Source of the DNA: a virus
Length of the DNA: 41,360 bases
Reading direction: 5' to 3' (one strand)
IMG/VR virus record: IMGVR_UViG_3300047444_000306
Coordinates: 1-41,360 of that record
The translations under genes and the position numbers were made by a program. The notes under the pieces were generated by a model. That model did no database searches and was not told the origin of the DNA. It saw only the letters and a list, made by a program, of their open reading frames with translations. Shown piece by piece: positions 20,053 to 41,360 of this stretch. Positions within the stretch are counted from its first letter, which is position 1; each line of letters starts with the position of its first letter.

Positions 20053-20152
20053 AAGTTTAGGGCCCGTAAGGTCTGGTGACGGGCGGCACCATCTGCGCTT
20101 GGCCAGCTTCACGGATTGTTTCGCCGCTTAGGAGTGCTGGCCCTACTCCCGC

Positions 20153-20226
20153 ATACCCTGATGGATTCGAACCACCGACACCCGGGTTTGGAATCCGGTG
20201 CTCTGGCCTGACTGAGCTAAGGGCAT
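20153..20226 (-). tRNA. tRNA-Trp (CCA)
   Basis: 74 nt. Acceptor ATGCCCT/AGGGTAT (one G-U), D arm TAGCTCAGTCAGG, anticodon loop TTCCAAA giving CCA, T loop TTCGAAT. The lowest anticodon-stem pair is an A-C mismatch. Last of four tRNAs. Confidence 0.9.
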
Positions 20227-20292
20227 AGGGCGCTTCGCGCTAACCAGTCACGTGCCGCGAGGCCCGTAGTGTTCCTGGCGCGCTAGCGCTGC

Positions 20293-20365
20293 TGGCACGG
20301 CAGGGATCGAACCTGCGACATCCGGATTAACAATCCGGCGCTCTTACCGACTGAGCTACATGCCA
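20293..20365 (-). tRNA. tRNA-Asn (GTT)
   Basis: 73 nt. Acceptor TGGCATG/CGTGCCA, perfect anticodon stem CCGGA/TCCGG with loop TTGTTAA, T loop TTCGATC. All arms canonical. Confidence 0.93.
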
Positions 20366-20442
20366 TTGCCCGCAAGCGAACCACATCACCCCTGCGGAGG
20401 GCACCCCGACCGCTATACACAGATCAGTGCCGTTCCTGACGC

Positions 20443-20513
20443 GCCTCATGCCGGATTTGAACCGACGACCCTCCGCACGACAAGCGGACGCTCTACCACT
20501 GAGCTAATGAGGC
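20443..20513 (-). tRNA. tRNA-Asp (GTC)
   Basis: 71 nt. Acceptor GCCTCAT/ATGAGGC, anticodon stem TCCGC/GCGGA with loop TTGTCGT, T loop TTCAAAT. All arms canonical. Confidence 0.93.
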
Positions 20514-20816
20514 TTGGCAGCGAGCCAATCCTTCGCCTCATCCGTATCCGGAGCGCGCAAGGCACCGCTGCGTGGGGGTGGTGGTTTTTCCCGCCCTAAC
20601 CCGGACGGCCCCTTACCAAGATTTAGGGCTACTCGCCGCGCGCTGCAACCGATGACTAGTCGGCCAGTCCGAGCCGGTTTCACCCAAGGTGCGCGGCGGA
20701 ACGCCGGTCAAGGCATTCCGTCAGTGCACCACGTGTCGGGTTTGTTAACGCAGTGTGCTCCCTCTGCGGACTAGCTTCGCGGATTCAACCGCCATGTTGG
20801 CGCTAGCCTGGCCCCG
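20514..20816. other. Non-coding gap inside the tRNA cluster
   Basis: 303 nt between tRNA-Asp and tRNA-Ile with no gene. It holds a 7-bp hairpin GCCCTAA/TTAGGGC (about 20597-20633) and a compact 40-nt fold at 20769-20808 with a 7-bp acceptor-like stem, but no complete tRNA. It may be the scar of deleted tRNAs. Confidence 0.5.
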
Positions 20817-20891
20817 TTCGCCCGGATGGATTTGAACCACCGACCTACGCCTTATCAGGGCGTCGCTCTAACCGGACTGAGCTACAGGCAA
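20817..20891 (-). tRNA. tRNA-Ile (GAT)
   Basis: 75 nt. Acceptor TTGCCTG/CGGGCGA (two G-U), anticodon stem ACGCC/GGCGT with loop CTGATAA, T loop TTCAAAT. First of the cluster, about 210 nt downstream of early box 2. Confidence 0.9.
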
Positions 20892-21116
20892 TCAGCTTTG
20901 CAGGCGCCCTACGTGCCGGGTCGTTTAAGGCCAAGCTGCGTGCACGCTGGCCCCTGCGTAGCGCGGGTGCACGTCGTTGCGCTTGCGCGCCCTGACGCTC
21001 CCTGGGTTTATGCGAAGCGACGGGAGAGAGTGCGTCGCCCGCACGTGGCACGAAGTCCTCAGTCCGCCTAATCGCTCGGAGGGGTGCGCGGGATGCTTCG
21101 TGCTCTACTTGTACTA

Positions 21117-21132
21117 GGGACAAGCGACTGCC
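21117..21132 (-). promoter_or_regulatory. Early promoter box 2, tRNA cluster
   Basis: GGCAGTCGCTTGTCCC followed by TAGTACA and then AGTAGA. It lies upstream of the four tRNAs with no protein gene between, so they are probably early transcripts. Confidence 0.7.
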
Positions 21133-21156
21133 AGCGCGGAGGGGCGGCCGAGAGGC

Positions 21157-21260
21157 CCGAGTGACGAAGTGACGTTGTGCCGAGCGGTTCTGATTGCACC
21201 TACAGATATAGAGACTCTATGGATGGAACAGCACTACTCGTCATCTCGTCACTTCGTCAC
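21157..21260. repeat. 104-bp TIR-bounded element, copy 1
   Basis: Ends in a perfect 14-bp inverted repeat, GTGACGAAGTGACG (21161-21174) and its complement (21247-21260), and holds a 13-bp palindrome ATAGAGACTCTAT (21208-21220). Nearly identical to 40859-40962 except for about 15 central-left bases and single changes. It lies 24 nt upstream of early box 2 in transcription order and downstream of integrase. Confidence 0.9.
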
Positions 21261-21382: not shown

Positions 21383-23032
21383 TCACTCGTCTTCGTCGTA
21401 CGGGTGCCACTCGATCCGGACCCGCCGTTCCACAGGAACGATCTTCTTGTCTTCGTCGCGTCCCTTGCCGACACGGATAGCGCGGACGAAGAGCGCCAGG
21501 AACTCCCGCCGCTCGTACACGTCCCAGGATGCCCACAGCGAGCCGGTGCCGATTGGGTCAGTGCCCGGCTCCACGTCCCACTCTGACGGCACTCGTACGC
21601 GCTCTACGTCCTGGCCTGCCAGCTCCGCGAGCTTCGCTGTGCATGATTCCTCATAGTCCCGGTATTGCGTGATCGTCGCGCGCCATACGGTCAACTCGTC
21701 GGCGCCCCGGTACAGCCCCGCCTTACGGTCCGCTTGCAGCTCTCGGATGCTGTCGCGTACGTGGTCCAGGTGGGCCTGCGTCTCCAGCCGCTCAGCTTCC
21801 GCTCCGGCCGTGTCTTGCTGGTGGGTGAAGCGCATGGCAGCAGCGATGACGAATGGGTCAGTGGGCTCCGCCGACGTGAGCCGTGCCCACACTCGCCGCG
21901 CCACGTAGTCATCTAGGATCTCCCGCTGAATCGACAGGCCACCGTGCCCGACCGGATTGGCGCACATGTACATGGGATCGCTCTTACCCATTGATCCGCC
22001 GCATTCGCCGCACGTAAGCATGCGCCATCCGCTGAGGAGTGTTTGAGCGCCGCTGAGGGGTCGCCTACGGGCCTTTGTGCGGCCGGACAGCACCTCTTGC
22101 AGTGCCAGCCACTCAGCGCCCGTCAGGACCCCTGCGTGGGGCGCCAACGGGGCACCTCCTTCATCGCGCGCCATCACGTTCTCATTGCCGCGCCGCTCGC
22201 TGGCGAATCCTCCGATGGCGGGGTGAGTGAGCATGTGCCGCACGCTCTGAGAGCGCCACAGAATCGTCCGCTCTTCCGTGCTCGTACCAGTTCGGCGCTT
22301 GTTCACATCCGCCATTCGTGCTGCTGTCGCCCGCTGAGCACTGAGACCCGGGGGCGCAATTCCGTCCTCATTGAGAATCTTCGCAATGGCGCCGTATGTG
22401 TGGCCTTCCATTGCGAGATCGGCAGCGCGCTTGACGATCGGGCCGGTTTCCGGGTGCGGCTCCAAATACGTCACTACGAGTTTGTCCGCAGCAGCGCGAA
22501 CACCCTGCATTCCGTACGGGGGCGCGGAACTGTGCCTACCGCCGACTGCGCCGATAGCGGCCTTTGTACTGGCAAGCTTCGCGGATTTAATGTCGCTGTC
22601 CTGTTTCACCAGGGCGGCAATCAGCGCGAAAATCGCCTGGCCTACCGGCGAGGACGTGTCAATGAACGGCTCCAACACGCTGACCAGGCGGACGCCGTAT
22701 TTCTTCAGCTCGTCGTCAATGGTCATGGCGTCGAATGCGCCCTGTCGGGTGAGCCGGGCAAGCTCGGGGATAATGATCACGTCGGCTTCGTGGGCGCGCA
22801 CGCCAGCCATCATCTTCTCGAAGTCGGCACGGATCACCGAAGGGTCCCATCCGGACCGGCCGACGTCTGCGAAGCGGCCCACCACCGTGTAGCCCCGCGC
22901 GTCGGCAAGGTGCTGGTCCATCTCTAGTTGGGTCTCGGTGCTGGTCTCGCTGCCGTCTAGTCGGGCTTTTGACTGCCGTGCGTATAGGAACGCCCTGACG
23001 ACGTCTTGGGGGTGCGTGCTGAGTGGGGTCAT
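21383..23032 (-). CDS. int: Large serine integrase
   Basis: 549 aa. The N-terminal catalytic domain has YARQS with nucleophile Ser21, and ELARLTRQGAFD with the conserved Arg pair. A recombinase domain follows (about 170-310), then a zinc ribbon with CGECGGS near 339 and further Cys at about 353. A coiled coil lies at about 395-460, as in phiC31-type integrases. The enzyme joins attP and attB without host factors, and excision needs an RDF. The start has AAGGAAG upstream. A 22-bp inverted repeat lies 30 nt before the start (23062-23083). Full length and apparently intact, so the phage is temperate. Confidence 0.96.
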   Translation of the reverse strand: MTPLSTHPQDVVRAFLYARQSKARLDGSETSTETQLEMDQHLADARGYTVVGRFADVGRSGWDPSVIRADFEKMMAGVRAHEADVIIIPELARLTRQGAFDAMTIDDELKKYGVRLVSVLEPFIDTSSPVGQAIFALIAALVKQDSDIKSAKLASTKAAIGAVGGRHSSAPPYGMQGVRAAADKLVVTYLEPHPETGPIVKRAADLAMEGHTYGAIAKILNEDGIAPPGLSAQRATAARMADVNKRRTGTSTEERTILWRSQSVRHMLTHPAIGGFASERRGNENVMARDEGGAPLAPHAGVLTGAEWLALQEVLSGRTKARRRPLSGAQTLLSGWRMLTCGECGGSMGKSDPMYMCANPVGHGGLSIQREILDDYVARRVWARLTSAEPTDPFVIAAAMRFTHQQDTAGAEAERLETQAHLDHVRDSIRELQADRKAGLYRGADELTVWRATITQYRDYEESCTAKLAELAGQDVERVRVPSEWDVEPGTDPIGTGSLWASWDVYERREFLALFVRAIRVGKGRDEDKKIVPVERRVRIEWHPYDEDE

Positions 23033-25052: not shown

Positions 25053-25379
25053 CTACGCCTGCGACCCGTGGTTCTCGCCCCGACAGGAGCAGTCGCACGA
25101 CCCGCGCTTAGCGTTCGTGCACCGGCCATCGCACACCTTTTCCGGGTTGTAGGTGGCGTTCAGTGCTTCCACGCGCATCGGGCCGTGCGCCTCGCACCAA
25201 ATCCCCCGGCGACGCATCGGGGTCTCGATACCCGCAGGGCGGAAGTACGCGGCGTTAAACAGGTTCTCAAGCCCGTTGTCTGTGCGGATGACCGGTGCAC
25301 CGCCCACGACGGGGGCGAGGAACGGCTTACGGGCCTTGCAACCCTTGTGCTCGCAGTAGGCGAAGAATCGCTCAGCCAT
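25053..25379 (-). CDS. Cys-rich metal-binding protein
   Basis: 108 aa from ATG 25379. A Cys-x4-Cys pair lies near the N-terminus, and a C-terminal cluster CDGRC, CTNAKRGSCDCSC, then HG occurs in many actinophage and plasmid proteins of unknown role. The leader (GGTACGGTCAGCAGACAACG) is shared with the gene at 25579. Operator site 5 lies 55 nt upstream. Confidence 0.75.
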   Translation of the reverse strand: MAERFFAYCEHKGCKARKPFLAPVVGGAPVIRTDNGLENLFNAAYFRPAGIETPMRRRGIWCEAHGPMRVEALNATYNPEKVCDGRCTNAKRGSCDCSCRGENHGSQA

Positions 25380-25433
25380 GGTGTGCTCCCTCGCTTGTCG
25401 TTGTCTGCTGACCGTACCATGCGGGACGGACCA

Positions 25434-25582: not shown

Positions 25583-26079
25583 GGCTTCGGCACCTGCCGG
25601 TAGTGAGGGTTCTGGAACCCTCCCGTCTCGGTCTTCGGCTCACTGGCGTAGTGGCCGTGCGCAACGTGCCGAAGCTCAATGAACCGCCCGTCCGTGCTCA
25701 TCACACGCCACACGTTTCCGAACGTCGTCTTCACGTACTGGCCAACCTCCGGGATGTACTCCGGAAAGCACACGTCGCAGTCCAGATCACAGCCCTCCGG
25801 GTCGTGGGCGGGAACCGCCTCCGCCGCAATCTGCGCAAGCGCCGCCTTTTCGCACGTCTTGCACAGTTTCCGGCCACCAGCGAGCCGCGCGGCTTCCAGG
25901 GCATCAGCCAGCGACTCGAACGACTTGCCAGCCCCGAACCGTCCCCGCGTCAGCGCCCCGCACGCGCTCAGCGAGTAGTCACTGACGTGGCTGCCCATGT
26001 CGTTGCCGCCACCCGTGGTGCGCGCGCTGATGCCGTCAATGTGATTCGTGGTCCGGTTGTAGCGGATCGTGTAGGCCAT
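25579..26079 (-). CDS. Zinc-knuckle early protein
   Basis: 166 aa from ATG 26079 with GGGAG upstream. The middle carries CKTCEKA and GCDLDCDVC, with an N-terminal Cys, consistent with a zinc site. A C-terminal strand-rich segment reads KTTFGNVWRVMSTDGRFIELRH. It shares its leader with the gene at 25053 and follows operator site 6, so the pair may come from a duplicated regulatory cassette. Confidence 0.75.
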   Translation of the reverse strand: MAYTIRYNRTTNHIDGISARTTGGGNDMGSHVSDYSLSACGALTRGRFGAGKSFESLADALEAARLAGGRKLCKTCEKAALAQIAAEAVPAHDPEGCDLDCDVCFPEYIPEVGQYVKTTFGNVWRVMSTDGRFIELRHVAHGHYASEPKTETGGFQNPHYRQVPKP

Positions 26080-26119
26080 GGTGCGCTCCCTTGTTTGTCG
26101 TTGTCTGCTGACCGTACCA

Positions 26120-27277: not shown

Positions 27278-27311
27278 AGCGTCTCTCCTCGCTGCTGCGC
27301 TTGTACTTGCG

Positions 27312-27378
27312 TGTCCCTGGCGGGATTCGAACCCGCACCCCGATGCCTCGGAAGCTCTTGCCGTTGAGCTACAGGGAC
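27312..27378 (-). tRNA. tRNA-like element with shortened anticodon arm
   Basis: 67 nt. Perfect acceptor GTCCCTG/CAGGGAC, D arm TAGCTCAACGGCAAGAGC and T arm GCGGG-TTCGAAT-CCCGC. Only 17 nt lie between D and T stems, where 22-23 are normal. That stretch folds as TTCCGA-GGCA-TCGGGG, so no 7-nt loop with U33 exists and no anticodon can be assigned. It lies between the TerD gene and the next gene, ahead of its ribosome site. Confidence 0.6.
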
Positions 27379-27982: not shown

Positions 27983-28022
27983 GTGTGATTCCCTCTCCTC
28001 GGTTGCTGCGCTTGCGCTTGCG

Positions 28023-28109
28023 TGCCCGTGGCTGGATTCGAACCAGCTACCGCAGTCCCGGGAATTGCGCGCGCATCCGGGATCGGCTCTGCCATTGAGC
28101 TACACGGGC
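28023..28109 (-). tRNA. tRNA-like element with expanded anticodon arm
   Basis: 87 nt. Perfect acceptor GCCCGTG/CACGGGC, D arm TAGCTCAATGGCAGAGC, T arm GCTGG-TTCGAAT-CCAGC. The middle is 38 nt; its best fold is a TCCCGG/CCGGGA stem with a 15-nt loop (ATGCGCGCGCAATTC) and an 8-nt linker. No normal anticodon loop can be drawn. If the loop carries an 8-nt insertion, the anticodon could be GCG (Arg), but this is a guess. Confidence 0.6.
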
Positions 28110-28750: not shown

Positions 28751-28790
28751 TGCTCTCTCCTTCAGTGGGTTTCTGTCTCTACTTGGCTAT

Positions 28791-28806
28791 GGGACAAGCG
28801 ACTGCC
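28791..28806 (-). promoter_or_regulatory. Early promoter box 3
   Basis: GGCAGTCGCTTGTCCC, then ATAGCCA, then AGTAGA; 41 nt upstream of GTG 28750. Confidence 0.7.
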
Positions 28807-28815
28807 AGCAGCGCG

Positions 28816-29610: not shown

Positions 29611-29647
29611 GTGATTCTCCGCGTTCTCTGGGTGTCTGCTGCCATGA

Positions 29648-29663
29648 GGGACAAGCGACTGCC
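29648..29663 (-). promoter_or_regulatory. Early promoter box 4, sigma gene
   Basis: GGCAGTCGCTTGTCCC followed by TCATGGC and AGCAGA. It lies 37 nt upstream of the sigma start, with the operator 18 nt further upstream. Confidence 0.68.
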
Positions 29664-29681
29664 AGCGCGGAGCGGGGATCA

Positions 29682-32274: not shown

Positions 32275-34689
32275 TTACTCTCCTCCGAAGATGCCGGGTC
32301 CAGCGGGCGAAGCCGCACCAGCGATACGACAGCCCACCAGAGCGATTCCCTTGTTTGTCTTGCGCTTCTTCACCTTGCGCTCCGCCATAGCGGAGTAGAA
32401 CGTGGTCCGCGTCCAGCGCTCCCGATCGGGAAGGTTCTCCGCCTCGCACCAATCCAGATACGCGCTGAATGCGTCGTTGCCGGGCAGCGGGGTTGGGTCG
32501 TCGGTGCGCTCCAACACTCCGGGGAAGAATCCGGCCAGCGCATCGGACGTCTCCCGGTACTCCTTCACGCTGGCAGTGATGGCTTCCGGATCTTGCAGCC
32601 CGTTCGCGAACCAGTCGACGGCTCCGCGCACAGCCCACGCCGCAATGCCCTCCGCCTCAGCGGCAAGCTTCGCGTCCAACTTCGGATCGCGCTCATGCGG
32701 GGCGAACCAGCGCTGGAAGGGGATCATCTTGACCCGCCGCCACAGACCCTCATCCTGCCCGCGAAAGCGCGGCTGATGATTGGTCGCTAGCATGATCAGA
32801 AATGAGGGCTTGAACTCGAAAAACTCCTTCCGCATGAATCGCGCCGACATCATGTCCTTACCGGTCGCCCGCTTCAGCACCGCCTCACTCATCGGCTTGC
32901 CGCTCTCGCCCTCGCTGGCCATGACCAAGCGACTCCCGCGAAGTGCGGCGATGTCGTTCGGGATGCCGCCCGAAGCCTTTTCCTCGAAAGTCGCGAACTG
33001 CGTAGTTTTGGTGATCGGCCGGAACACCGTAGTCAGCGTGTCGGTCAGCACCGATTTGCCGTTCGCGCCCGTCCCCCACAGCACCGCGAAGCACTGTTCG
33101 CTGACATGCCCCGTGATGCCGTACCCACACAGCCGCTGCATGTAGTCGGCAAGCTCCGGCGCTGACGGGAAGATCTCCAACAGGAATGCCACCCAACGCG
33201 GGCACGTGGCATCCGGCCGGTAATCGAGATCCAGCGCGTATGTGAGCATGTCGCCTTTGGCGTGCGGGCGAAGCTCACCGGTCCGCAAGTCCACCGTGCC
33301 ATTGCGGAAGCTCAGCAAGTCCGGGCGGGCATCGAACGCGTCGATTTCCACATGGACGCTCGGTACGGCGCTCAGCTCACGCATGAGATCGTCAATATTC
33401 CGCGAGACGGAAAACCCCTTGGCGCCCTCAAATCCCGCTTGCTTCAGCGCGGCACCCATGTAGTGCACGGCCTGACGCACCCGCGTACTCCCGCGCTCCC
33501 ACGTGCGCCCGTTCCACACCATGAAGCCAAGCCCGTCCGCGTACTTGATATGCCCGCCCATGAAGGCCACCAGCGCGTGAGCGTTCAGCACGTCGCCCGC
33601 TTCGTAGCGCTCCGCAAGCTCCGCCATCACACGCACAGCGCGAGCGGCTTCGTCATCATCCGGCACCATCGCACCCGTTGACTCGTCCACCGTGGCGAGG
33701 CCCATGCGCGGCTGATACGGCGTGGCGCCCTTCACGGCGGCGTGCAGCGCATCCGGGAAACGCTGTGCCCCAATGCGTTCGCGCCACTCCGTCAGGTCGG
33801 CACCCTCATACGGCACGGCCAGCGTGAAGACGTCCAAGCCATGCGCGGCGAGAGCGGAGGCCAGCCGCTGAGTGAAGCCGTTGCCCGCCGTGTCGTTGTC
33901 CCCGCAGATGATGACTTGGCGCCCTGCGAGGTTCCGCGCAAGCTCCGCGATCAGCTCCGCACTGCCACTGAGCGAGGCGCCCCGGATGCCCACGGCGTCA
34001 TAGCCCACGGAAACTGCTGTGAGCCCGTCTCCTGGCCCCTCAGTGAGCAGCACGGGTGCATACCCGCCCTGCCCCCTGAAGACGCCGTACGTAGCCCAGT
34101 GAGCCCCTTCAGGGTTGGTCAGCGAGACCCACCTACCCGGGCACTTGCCGCTGAGATCGCGACCCTGAAGCCCGTAGGCGATGCCGTCGAAACCGCGCAG
34201 CGGAACCGTGAGGCGCCCATAGGACTTGTACGCGCGAGACAGGTGGGGGAAGCCGAAGCCGTCCCCTTCGTCCACACCAAGCATCAGATCTGCGGCGGTT
34301 TCCACGTCGATGCCGAAGCGGCGGAGTGCGTACGCCCGTGCCTGCTCCGCTACGGCGTTGTACGGGTTCGCCAGCGCGTCAGCAGCCGACAGCACGTAGC
34401 TAGCCAACGCGTCTCGGTGGGTCTCGCCGATCAGGCGGGGACGCTCGCGCGGCACGGTCAGCCCGTCGCCGGTCGCATTGAACATTTGGGGCCACGTGAG
34501 GCCAGCGGCTTTGATCACGTCGTCAGGCTCACACCCGGCACGGCACGTGACGCGGACCTTGCCATCGTCGCCCCGCCAAATGCGGAGGGATGGCGTCGAA
34601 TCCGGGTGCGCGCCGCACAGCGCGAGGTACCCGCCATCGGATTCTTCACTCACGCGTTCGAACCGCGCGAGGATTTCAGCGAATTTCAT
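32275..34689 (-). CDS. Primase-helicase
   Basis: 804 aa. The N-terminal zinc site has Cys25, His28, Cys49 and Cys53 (CGAHP...CRAGC). The TOPRIM region at about 215-300 has TEGPGDGL and GDNDTAG. Linkers follow, then a D5/P4-type helicase core with Walker A GTGANGKS (about 537-545). It synthesises primers and unwinds DNA, as in phiC31-like phages. It is transcribed from box 5 (34723-34738), with a terminator just upstream of the box. Confidence 0.94.
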   Translation of the reverse strand: MKFAEILARFERVSEESDGGYLALCGAHPDSTPSLRIWRGDDGKVRVTCRAGCEPDDVIKAAGLTWPQMFNATGDGLTVPRERPRLIGETHRDALASYVLSAADALANPYNAVAEQARAYALRRFGIDVETAADLMLGVDEGDGFGFPHLSRAYKSYGRLTVPLRGFDGIAYGLQGRDLSGKCPGRWVSLTNPEGAHWATYGVFRGQGGYAPVLLTEGPGDGLTAVSVGYDAVGIRGASLSGSAELIAELARNLAGRQVIICGDNDTAGNGFTQRLASALAAHGLDVFTLAVPYEGADLTEWRERIGAQRFPDALHAAVKGATPYQPRMGLATVDESTGAMVPDDDEAARAVRVMAELAERYEAGDVLNAHALVAFMGGHIKYADGLGFMVWNGRTWERGSTRVRQAVHYMGAALKQAGFEGAKGFSVSRNIDDLMRELSAVPSVHVEIDAFDARPDLLSFRNGTVDLRTGELRPHAKGDMLTYALDLDYRPDATCPRWVAFLLEIFPSAPELADYMQRLCGYGITGHVSEQCFAVLWGTGANGKSVLTDTLTTVFRPITKTTQFATFEEKASGGIPNDIAALRGSRLVMASEGESGKPMSEAVLKRATGKDMMSARFMRKEFFEFKPSFLIMLATNHQPRFRGQDEGLWRRVKMIPFQRWFAPHERDPKLDAKLAAEAEGIAAWAVRGAVDWFANGLQDPEAITASVKEYRETSDALAGFFPGVLERTDDPTPLPGNDAFSAYLDWCEAENLPDRERWTRTTFYSAMAERKVKKRKTNKGIALVGCRIAGAASPAGPGIFGGE

Positions 34690-34722
34690 TCGTTGCTCTC
34701 TCCTACTCGTCTACTGCGGGGA

Positions 34723-34738
34723 GGGACAAGCGACTGCC
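34723..34738 (-). promoter_or_regulatory. Early promoter box 5
   Basis: GGCAGTCGCTTGTCCC then TCCCCGC and AGTAGA, 34 nt upstream of the primase-helicase start. Confidence 0.7.
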
Positions 34739-34755
34739 AGCGGCGCTAACGCAAA

Positions 34756-38438: not shown

Positions 38439-38531
38439 AAGGGGCGGGAAGGGTCAGCTTCGCCTACGGGCAAGTGGTCCGCGTGTGCGGTGTTGTGCCC
38501 CCCGGCGTAGCCTCCGCGCTTCCCGCCCCTT
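38439..38531 (-). ncRNA. Structured leader of the RDF candidate
   Basis: Between box 6 and ATG 38405. A perfect 13-bp stem, AAGGGGCGGGAAG (38519-38531) and its complement (38439-38451), encloses about 67 nt. Inside lie CGCC/GGCG and GGGCA/TGCCC stems and a CCGC-ACAC-GCGG hairpin. After the outer stem comes TTTCCC. It may be an attenuator or riboregulator, or simply mRNA-protecting structure. Confidence 0.6.
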
Positions 38532-38543
38532 CTACTTAGCTAT

Positions 38544-38559
38544 GGGACAAGCGACTGCC
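38544..38559 (-). promoter_or_regulatory. Early promoter box 6
   Basis: GGCAGTCGCTTGTCCC then ATAGCTA and AGTAGA. The structured leader starts at or just after AGTAGA. Confidence 0.7.
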
Positions 38560-38563
38560 CGCC

Positions 38564-38629
38564 CTAGCGGCTTGCGCCCCCGGCAGCGAAAAGCGCGACC
38601 ACAACGACAATCAGGATGATCAGCATCAT
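38564..38629 (-). CDS. 21-aa membrane peptide
   Basis: ATG 38629 overlaps the preceding stop (ATGA) with GGAGGGGGG upstream. Nearly all residues hydrophobic (LIILIVVVVALFAAGG), one transmembrane helix with almost no flanks. The strong SD and coupling argue it is real. Confidence 0.6.
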   Translation of the reverse strand: MMLIILIVVVVALFAAGGASR

Positions 38630-39851: not shown

Positions 39852-39970
39852 TACTGCCCTTCCCTGGCGAGGTAGATGATGATGTCGCCGACGAGCCAGC
39901 CGACTACGTAGCTGATGTCGGGCATGCGGTGTGTGACGAGCCAGTAGGCGAGGATCAGCGCAGCGCCCAT
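39851..39970 (-). CDS. 39-aa membrane peptide
   Basis: ATG 39970 overlaps the exonuclease stop by one base (TAATG). Two hydrophobic stretches (AALILAYWLVTH and YVVGWLVGDIIIYLA) split by MPDIS. Likely a membrane peptide. Confidence 0.62.
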   Translation of the reverse strand: MGAALILAYWLVTHRMPDISYVVGWLVGDIIIYLAREGQ

Positions 39971-40806
39971 TACTTCGCCCTCCGCTGTGTGCCGGTGATG
40001 ATCTGCCCGCTTCCCGCGATGGCCTTGCCGATGGCGCCACGCGAATCCGCGTCCCACCCGAACAGCCCGCGCAGATACAGGAAGTAACGGAATGCCTCGC
40101 GGAGATCCATCTCGATCGGGTGGAAGTTCCAGCCCTTGTCCGTGATGTGCAGCACGTACGCGCCCGTGATCTCAGGGATCGGAAACTGACGGCCGTCAGC
40201 GTCCAGGATGTAATCCGCTTCGGCATACGCCGCGAGCTGCATAGCTACTTCCGCGTGCGTGTCCTTGGACGTCTTCCAGTCCACAATCACAACGCGCGGA
40301 GTGCCCGAGCGATCCGGAGTCGGCAGGCCGAAAGCGTCAAGCCACACAGTGAGGATTGCGTCGAACGATCCGGCGTAGTCCCAGGTCTCCGACCAGACGA
40401 CGTCCTCAGCGCGCACAAGCTCCGGATTCACAGCGGCAAGGAACTCCGCGAAGTGCCGGTGAACGTGCTCCAGATCGGGGGCGATACTGCGGATGACCTC
40501 TCCGCGAATCATGCGCTCAAAGAGATCGTGCGCCTCGCTGCCGAAATTGGCGCGGATGGTGGTGTAGCGGCGGCTCGCTCCGCTGAGGTACTTCACGGCG
40601 CCCTCGCGGTCGTTCTCCGCCATGCGCTCAATGAACGCGAGCGAGTCAATCGCAAGCTCCGCTGTCATCTTCGCGGCCCACGGCGAGAGGAACGGCTTTG
40701 CGAGCTTGTCCAGCACGCTGGTGACGCCGGGTCGCTTGGTGCGGTCGTCGCTAGGGTCGATGTAGTAGCGACTGCCACCCCGGTACAGGGTGCGTACTTG
40801 GCTCAT
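39970..40806 (-). CDS. RecB/Cas4-like PD-(D/E)XK exonuclease
   Basis: 278 aa, ATG 40806. Core nuclease motifs are present: SFDAILTVW with the conserved Asp, VVIVDWKTSKD (the D-x-K motif near 172-177), and QLAAYAEA. The N-terminus PGVTSVLDKLAKPFL is common in phage members. It likely resects DNA for recombination or replication. First gene after box 7 and the second 104-bp element. Confidence 0.88.
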   Translation of the reverse strand: MSQVRTLYRGGSRYYIDPSDDRTKRPGVTSVLDKLAKPFLSPWAAKMTAELAIDSLAFIERMAENDREGAVKYLSGASRRYTTIRANFGSEAHDLFERMIRGEVIRSIAPDLEHVHRHFAEFLAAVNPELVRAEDVVWSETWDYAGSFDAILTVWLDAFGLPTPDRSGTPRVVIVDWKTSKDTHAEVAMQLAAYAEADYILDADGRQFPIPEITGAYVLHITDKGWNFHPIEMDLREAFRYFLYLRGLFGWDADSRGAIGKAIAGSGQIITGTQRRAK

Positions 40807-40844: not shown

Positions 40845-40860
40845 GGGACAGACGACTGCC
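40845..40860 (-). promoter_or_regulatory. Early promoter box 7
   Basis: GGCAGTCGTCTGTCCC followed by TCCATAG and GTGAGA, directly abutting the 104-bp element. It lies 39 nt upstream of the exonuclease start. Confidence 0.68.
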
Positions 40861-40962
40861 GAGTGACGAAGTGACGTTGTGGCGGCGCCTCCCGTTTGCA
40901 CCTACAGATATAGAGACTCTATGGATGGAACAGAACTACTCGTCATCTCGTCACTTCGTCAC
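40859..40962. repeat. 104-bp TIR-bounded element, copy 2
   Basis: Same architecture as 21157-21260: 14-bp terminal inverted repeat GTGACGAAGTGACG, and a central palindrome at 40910-40922. It ends at early box 7 with a 2-nt overlap. Confidence 0.9.
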
Positions 40963-41069: not shown

Positions 41070-41360
41070 CTACAGGGCGGAAGCCTGCGCGATGAGTGCC
41101 GTTGCCGCTGCGTTCAGCTTCGCCTTCAGCTTCTCCCGCTCCGCGTCGTCCAGCTTCGGGGCACGCTTGACGGCAGTCGTAAGCAGCTTCTCCGCGCGGG
41201 ACACGCGCTCGAACTCCTTCACGTACTCCTCGCTGCCAGTCGGCAGAGCAGCGGGGGCGGGCGAGTCGGAGCGCGGGCTCATGCGCTGCAACAGTGCCCC
41301 CACAGCCTCAGACGGCTTGGCCTCCGGCGCGGCTTCCAGCTCCTTGGCGAAGCGCGCGGC
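41070..41360 (-). CDS. C-terminal part of the two-start protein (5' cut by window edge)
   Basis: Same gene as 1-964; bases 41234-41360 duplicate 1-127. The distinct part ends KLDDAEREKLKAKLNAAATA, a basic helix, then stops at 41070. The intact gene is contiguous in the circular genome. Confidence 0.85.
   Translation of the reverse strand, partial: AARFAKELEAAPEAKPSEAVGALLQRMSPRSDSPAPAALPTGSEEYVKEFERVSRAEKLLTTAVKRAPKLDDAEREKLKAKLNAAATALIAQASAL
41234..41360. repeat. 127-bp terminal duplication of window bases 1-127
   Basis: Exact copy of 1-127, checked base by base at several anchor points. It lies inside one reading frame and fits an assembler's k-mer overlap on a circular or terminally redundant molecule, so the unit genome is 41,233 bp. 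Confidence 0.95.

Follow-up and report, generated by a model that had tools for sequence, protein, structure and literature searches.

Paired iteron elements as probable replication origins of phiC31-type phages, and their co-variation with the primase-helicase wing

A paired element in a phiC31/TG1-like genome

The 104-bp element at positions 21157-21260 of the window (the whole 41,360-nt stretch of DNA analysed, IMG/VR record IMGVR_UViG_3300047444_000306) is very probably a replication origin of the phiC31-type phages, carried in two copies and bound by the phage primase-helicase, with both activity and binding proposed from sequence comparison. Its anatomy is the same as that of the SaPI/PICI origins, which led us to this conclusion, and the wing of the primase-helicase most likely reads the repeats, with the repeat sequence and the protein changing in step family-wide. 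With less confidence, we lean toward a fuller reading in which two matched origins lie one at each boundary of the early and late blocks, and a wing code (residue 779 to base 1, 777 to base 4 and 782 to base 5) has switched repeatedly, leaving differing phages mutually blind to each other's origins. No mapped phiC31 replication origin was found in the literature accessible to our search. phiC31 is a workhorse of genetics, and two exact candidate origin sites, at phiC31 positions 21667-21760 and 40446-40541 with GTGAYG arms, and a proposed initiator domain can now be named for it, together with three candidate specificity residues that make the claim testable by point mutants; the system would also be a naturally occurring example of a protein-DNA recognition code, switched repeatedly, in which a winged helix reads DNA by its wing.

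The ends of the window share a 127-nt direct repeat (1-127 equals 41234-41360), indicating a closed circular phage genome, 41,233 bp long, shown here on the strand opposite to the phage genes. The window is a phiC31/TG1-like Streptomyces phage; its primase shares ~62% identity with the primases of Lilbooboo, Shawty, phiBT1, TG1 and phiC31, all Streptomyces phages. Its minus-strand gene order of exonuclease, early genes (primase-helicase, DNA polymerase), serine integrase, tRNAs, HNH, terminase and structural genes matches phiC31. An Rfam search of the window returned tRNAs only, and GC skew was uninformative, with no turn at copy 1 or copy 2. The features of the two copies and their surroundings are as follows.

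21157-21260, no strand: copy 1 (late-side), 3+3 inverted iterons and AT-rich core, with the integrase gene on one side and the tRNA genes on the other
21161-21182, plus strand: copy 1 arm 1, GTGACG, GTGACG, GTGCCG (degenerate), 8-bp spacing
21185-21236, no strand: copy 1 AT-rich core, 56% AT (genome 36%), holding the ATAGAGACTCTAT palindrome
21239-21260, minus strand: copy 1 arm 2, GTGACG, GTGACG, ATGACG, 8-bp spacing
40859-40962, no strand: copy 2 (early-side), immediately upstream of the exonuclease gene, which heads the early block
40863-40884, plus strand: copy 2 arm 1, GTGACG, GTGACG, GTGGCG
40887-40938, no strand: copy 2 AT-rich core, 54% AT
40941-40962, minus strand: copy 2 arm 2, GTGACG, GTGACG, ATGACG
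39970-40806, minus strand: exonuclease gene (exo), first early gene, downstream of copy 2
21383-23032, minus strand: large serine integrase gene (int), upstream of copy 1
20151-20891, minus strand: tRNA genes Ile, Asp, Asn and Trp, downstream of copy 1, followed by the HNH gene and terminase

A sequence-only reading of this DNA had described 14-bp terminal inverted repeats with two GTGACG units in each half, a central palindrome and a near-identical copy about 19.7 kb away. The copy and the palindrome were both confirmed: the two 104-bp sequences lie at a distance of 19,702 bp and align without gaps at ~90% identity, their likeness ends abruptly on either side, and ATAGAGACTCTAT (21208-21220 in copy 1) lies in both within a nearly invariant 68-bp block. 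The 14-bp arms are exact in both copies, but the left one begins at 21161, 4 bp inside the end of the element, and the preceding CCGA is common to both copies and outside the arm. Two GTGACG units per half are likewise exact, but each arm has a third unit at the same 8-bp spacing, the innermost being degenerate. Exact GTGACGAAGTGACG sites fall at 21161-21174 (plus), 21247-21260 (minus), 40863-40876 (plus) and 40949-40962 (minus), and at up to two mismatches there are 6 matches against 0.39 expected by chance, a number reached in 0 of 100 shuffles. In a blind search of the closed genome for AT-rich cores flanked by inverted arms with internal periodicity, the two copies ranked first and second. 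The core of copy 1 is the presumed melting region.

Conservation across the phage family

The sequence-only reading had proposed searching other actinophages, and this search found the pair in two fixed, orthologous places throughout the phiC31-type family, upstream of exo and downstream of int in phiC31, TG1, phiBT1, Lilbooboo, Shawty, Rowa, Samora, RemusLoopin and Shaeky. Complete genomes of phiC31, TG1 and phiBT1 relatives nearly always have two copies, as do most IMG/VR relatives, and in most of 64 IMG/VR loci found via exo the element lies ~155 bp upstream of that gene. Counted from stitched full records, both copies are present in 36 of the 47 genomes scanned, and several of the remaining genomes are incomplete records. 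In these 36 the copies are 15-24 kb apart, or 0.40-0.50 of the circle, a half-circle spacing that probably merely reflects two gene blocks of equal size. Each arm in the family holds 2-3 iterons at 8-bp spacing. The core is ~50-65 bp long across the family and varies in sequence while remaining AT-rich in every copy (AT 0.41-0.66, mostly 0.5-0.6, versus 0.32-0.40 for the genomes). Copy 1 used as a DNA query against named phages gave no match, owing to the fast divergence of the core, and an exact-pattern scan of viral contigs for the element found nothing.

Single-copy genomes exist, namely the closed genome L024 and prophages L009, L010 and L011, so two copies are probably not always needed and the exo-side copy can be lost. 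Clean absence of the exo-side copy was seen in Streptomyces prophages L009, L010, L011, L155, L231, L232, L233, L236 and L242, the first three of which retain one late-side copy each, and many prophages of this kind have a different wing (V-I-K-R-A-G-V). Upstream of exo in L191, L192, L193, L199, L250 and L253 there is a different AT-rich element, in several cases with GTCCCA / CTGGGAC motifs, not GTGACG-type iterons, and the wing residues of this group are NTV, NAV, PTI, DAV and TVV. L005 and L006 share identical iterons and near-identical flanks upstream of exo around different AT-rich cores, as if the core had been exchanged independently of the arms.

Co-variation of the iterons with the primase-helicase wing

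Iteron classes among the phages include GTGACG/GTGAYG, GTGTAG, ATGACG, CTGACG, GTGGTG, GTGCAG, GTGTYG and GGACGTTC. Free variation of the two copies between sister phages, with arms not co-varying, had been named by the sequence-only reading as the outcome that would speak against it; instead, arms and copies co-vary. Arm distance is 0.127 within an element and 0.120 between copies of one genome, against 0.342 between genomes, and the observed agreement within genomes was reached in 0 of 10,000 permutations. Since all arms within a genome agree, one trans-acting protein would read both copies.

Alignments of 12 protein families from 49 dereplicated genomes were examined in 40-residue stretches, 411 in all, for correlation with iteron distance, controlled for overall protein distance. 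The best-scoring stretches span the C-terminal ~55 residues of the primase-helicase, with a partial r of 0.46, a maximum equalled in 1 of 500 permutations. A terminase stretch gave a weaker signal (0.35), and no terminase column came near the top of the column ranking. Whole-protein partial correlations were weak in all 12 proteins (≤0.23), the signal being found in local stretches only. For iteron positions 4-5, primase-helicase columns 777 and 782 were the two best of 2,794 variable columns in the 12 proteins, and the partition is near-perfect: AC goes with K777 and I782 (31/31), and TA with R777 (9/9) and M782 (8/9), while GT occurs with V782 and CA with N. These residue numbers are shared by phiC31 gp9a and the window protein; a count that starts at the upstream stop codon makes them 785 and 790. 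With the primase-helicase C-terminus left out of the tree, iteron class switches ~8 times, which is few independent switches, and in 7 of 7 phylogenetically independent pairs it agrees with residue 777 as well as with residue 782 (sign test p=0.016). Residue 779 follows iteron position 1 (N with G, A or M with A, E with C), with only ~3 independent tree contrasts.

Primase-alignment scans supplied new phages and actinobacterial prophages as a held-out set, and the link largely held in the 36 new loci, after removal of redundancy, in which an iteron could be recognised. Hosts among the scan results include Arthrobacter, Pseudarthrobacter, Herbiconiux, Microbacterium, Promicromonospora and Actinoplanes, with primase identity of 44-46%. 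At position 4, K777 occurred with A in 25 of 26 loci (Fisher p ~1e-5) and R777 with T or C in 7 of 9; at position 1, N779 occurred with G in 19 of 19 (Fisher p ~3e-5) and M779 with A in 3 of 3; at position 5, M782 occurred with A in 5 of 5 (Fisher p ~4e-6) and I782 with C or T in 19 of 19. Further loci read by eye also match (L170, L180, L182, L188, L190, L195, L234 and L235). Some distant relatives break the wing rule or carry other elements, and exceptions to the rule include L203, L213 and L207, all three with R777 and GTGACG, as well as L247, L248, the K-K-R-T-N-K-G-I prophages and L024. For L011 (K777, M779, I782; no exo-side copy), ATGACG was predicted in advance, and its late-side sequence, retrieved only after the prediction, held one element with ATGACG in 4 of 4 units. 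L009 and L010, which have V782 and were excluded from the derivation, carry GCGGTG units in their single late-side copy, fitting V with GT at positions 4-5.

The proposed initiator and its wing are encoded as follows.

32275-34689, minus strand: primase-helicase, 804 aa, orthologue of phiC31 gp9a
32335-32370, minus strand: codons 774-785, beta-hairpin wing with candidate specificity residues K777, N779 and I782

Profile search against Pfam gave Toprim, D5_N and DUF5906 domains, and a Pox_D5-like C-terminus (winged helix) was found in 35 of 45 primase-helicase members. In the AlphaFold2 model, residues 726-789 fold as a winged helix (block pLDDT mostly 76-90) whose wing is a beta hairpin, 774-778/781-785, and residues 777, 779 and 782 all fall within this wing. 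Among domain-sized PDB entries, the C-terminal model is closest to the DNA-binding domain of RFX5 (target-length TM 0.71, with a weak Foldseek E of 0.08). Structural matches of the whole-protein model include D5/E5 of poxviruses, AsfvPrimPol and the SaPI5 primase-helicase, the last (7ola) with a profile match of E 2.4e-6 and a fold match of E 1e-14.

We propose that the winged helix would bind each iteron as a 6-bp recognition unit, mainly by its wing as in RFX-type winged helices, with residue 779 reading iteron position 1, 777 position 4 and 782 position 5. The opposed arms would then load two hexamers onto the AT-rich core, which would melt; the helicase would unwind, the Toprim primase domain would prime and the phage family-A DNA polymerase would extend. 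The second copy may serve as another origin or as a partner for bridging, much like the ori and crr pair of phage P4.

Comparison with known systems and alternative explanations

Origins of SaPI/PICI consist of an AT-rich region flanked by two iteron sets, and are recognised by the C-terminal domain of the SaPI Rep protein, apparently as two hexamers (PMC6092414, PMC7581432). The phiC31-type element was examined for this layout and has it, with two iteron sets flanking an AT-rich region, and its cognate protein is likewise a D5/SF3 primase-helicase whose C-terminus probably binds the iterons, as the Pfam and profile domains and the co-variation suggest. Unlike the SaPI/PICI origins, it is not directly 3′ of the initiator gene but kilobases from the primase gene, and it occurs in full-size temperate phages, twice, ~15-24 kb apart.

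Phage P4 alpha is a primase-helicase initiator with a C-terminal winged-helix origin-binding domain, acting with the distant cis sites ori and crr. The phiC31-type phages similarly have two separate cis sites with iterons (36 of 47 genomes), but here both sites share the iteron/AT-rich/iteron layout, and the primase domain is of Toprim type. D5-family tails have a fold resembling the P4 alpha origin-binding domain and RFX1 (PMC10516667), and in RFX1 the wing reads DNA in the major groove (PMC4333399). The candidate specificity residues of the primase-helicase, as modelled, also appear to sit in the wing, although RFX proteins are unrelated eukaryotic transcription factors and the RFX5 match is no better than the E value given above.

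Binding of the primase-helicase to these sites in a different role, e.g., autoregulation, would be expected to produce the same co-variation, and a phage-type promoter adjoins the element copies examined, which counts against the origin reading. Iteron initiators often autoregulate, and two distant identical sites suit looping, so the protein could bind them for regulation or for bridging (handcuffing or segregation). We consider this improbable, as an AT-rich core is kept between opposed arms in every copy despite sequence change, L009, L010, L011 and L024 have a single copy, and the match to the PICI origin layout is close. More improbable still is an activator or operator pair heading the early and late units, bound by the sigma-like gp12, a repressor or another phage regulator. 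Each copy does head a transcription block, after a terminator-like hairpin and beside a phage-type promoter motif, but the distance between element and motif ranges from ~0 to ~190 bp, the same motif occurs at other genes without the element, and phages without the exo-side copy retain promoter-like sequence before exo; the co-variation also indicates the primase-helicase wing and not a sigma-like protein, repressor, RDF or polymerase.

Of the possibilities raised by the sequence-only reading, a protein-bound structure such as an origin is supported, but a short mobile element is not. A MITE-like sequence copied within the phage would account for the ~100-bp size, terminal inverted repeats and near-identical pair, yet target duplications were sought in the flanks and none were found, insertion sites do not vary, and arms match within a genome but differ between phages. 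The element is at the same two loci in all relatives and nowhere else, a positional conservation that already refutes this explanation, and we rejected it as having almost no chance of being correct. A recombination site, either an accessory site of the serine integrase or a cos-linked packaging signal, seems equally far-fetched: copy 1 adjoins int and is ~2 kb from the terminase genes, but the second copy is 15-24 kb from both, the annotated phiBT1 attP is upstream and not downstream of int, and the iterons follow the primase wing. Attachment and packaging sites were thus rejected on position and co-variation.

Other sequence features of the window

The motif GGCAGTCGcTTGTCCC...AAGTAGA occurs on the minus strand at 21104-21140, 28778-28814, 29635-29671, 34710-34746 and 38531-38567, with a weaker instance at ~40845-40860, in most cases some tens of bases ahead of a gene start, and once beside each element copy. 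It looks like a phage-type early promoter, compare CCGACTCCCTTCA...GTAGAG in phiC31 relatives. Intergenic CCACATACnnnnnnCGTATGTGG palindromes at 1295, 6947, 14932, 25428, 26114, 29676, 32020 and 36571 are candidate operators of the phage repressor, compare the known conserved inverted repeats of phiC31. The sequence TTGCGTGCCCCCGGCGGGATTCGATCCCGCACCC, which resembles a tRNA 3′ end, is present at 996-1029, 27307-27340 and 28018-28051; one copy is part of a tRNA (27312-27378), and the remaining two may be tRNA remnants. Two 45-nt start regions 700 bp apart (25375-25419 and 26075-26119) are 93% identical, which suggests duplicated small genes or shared leaders.
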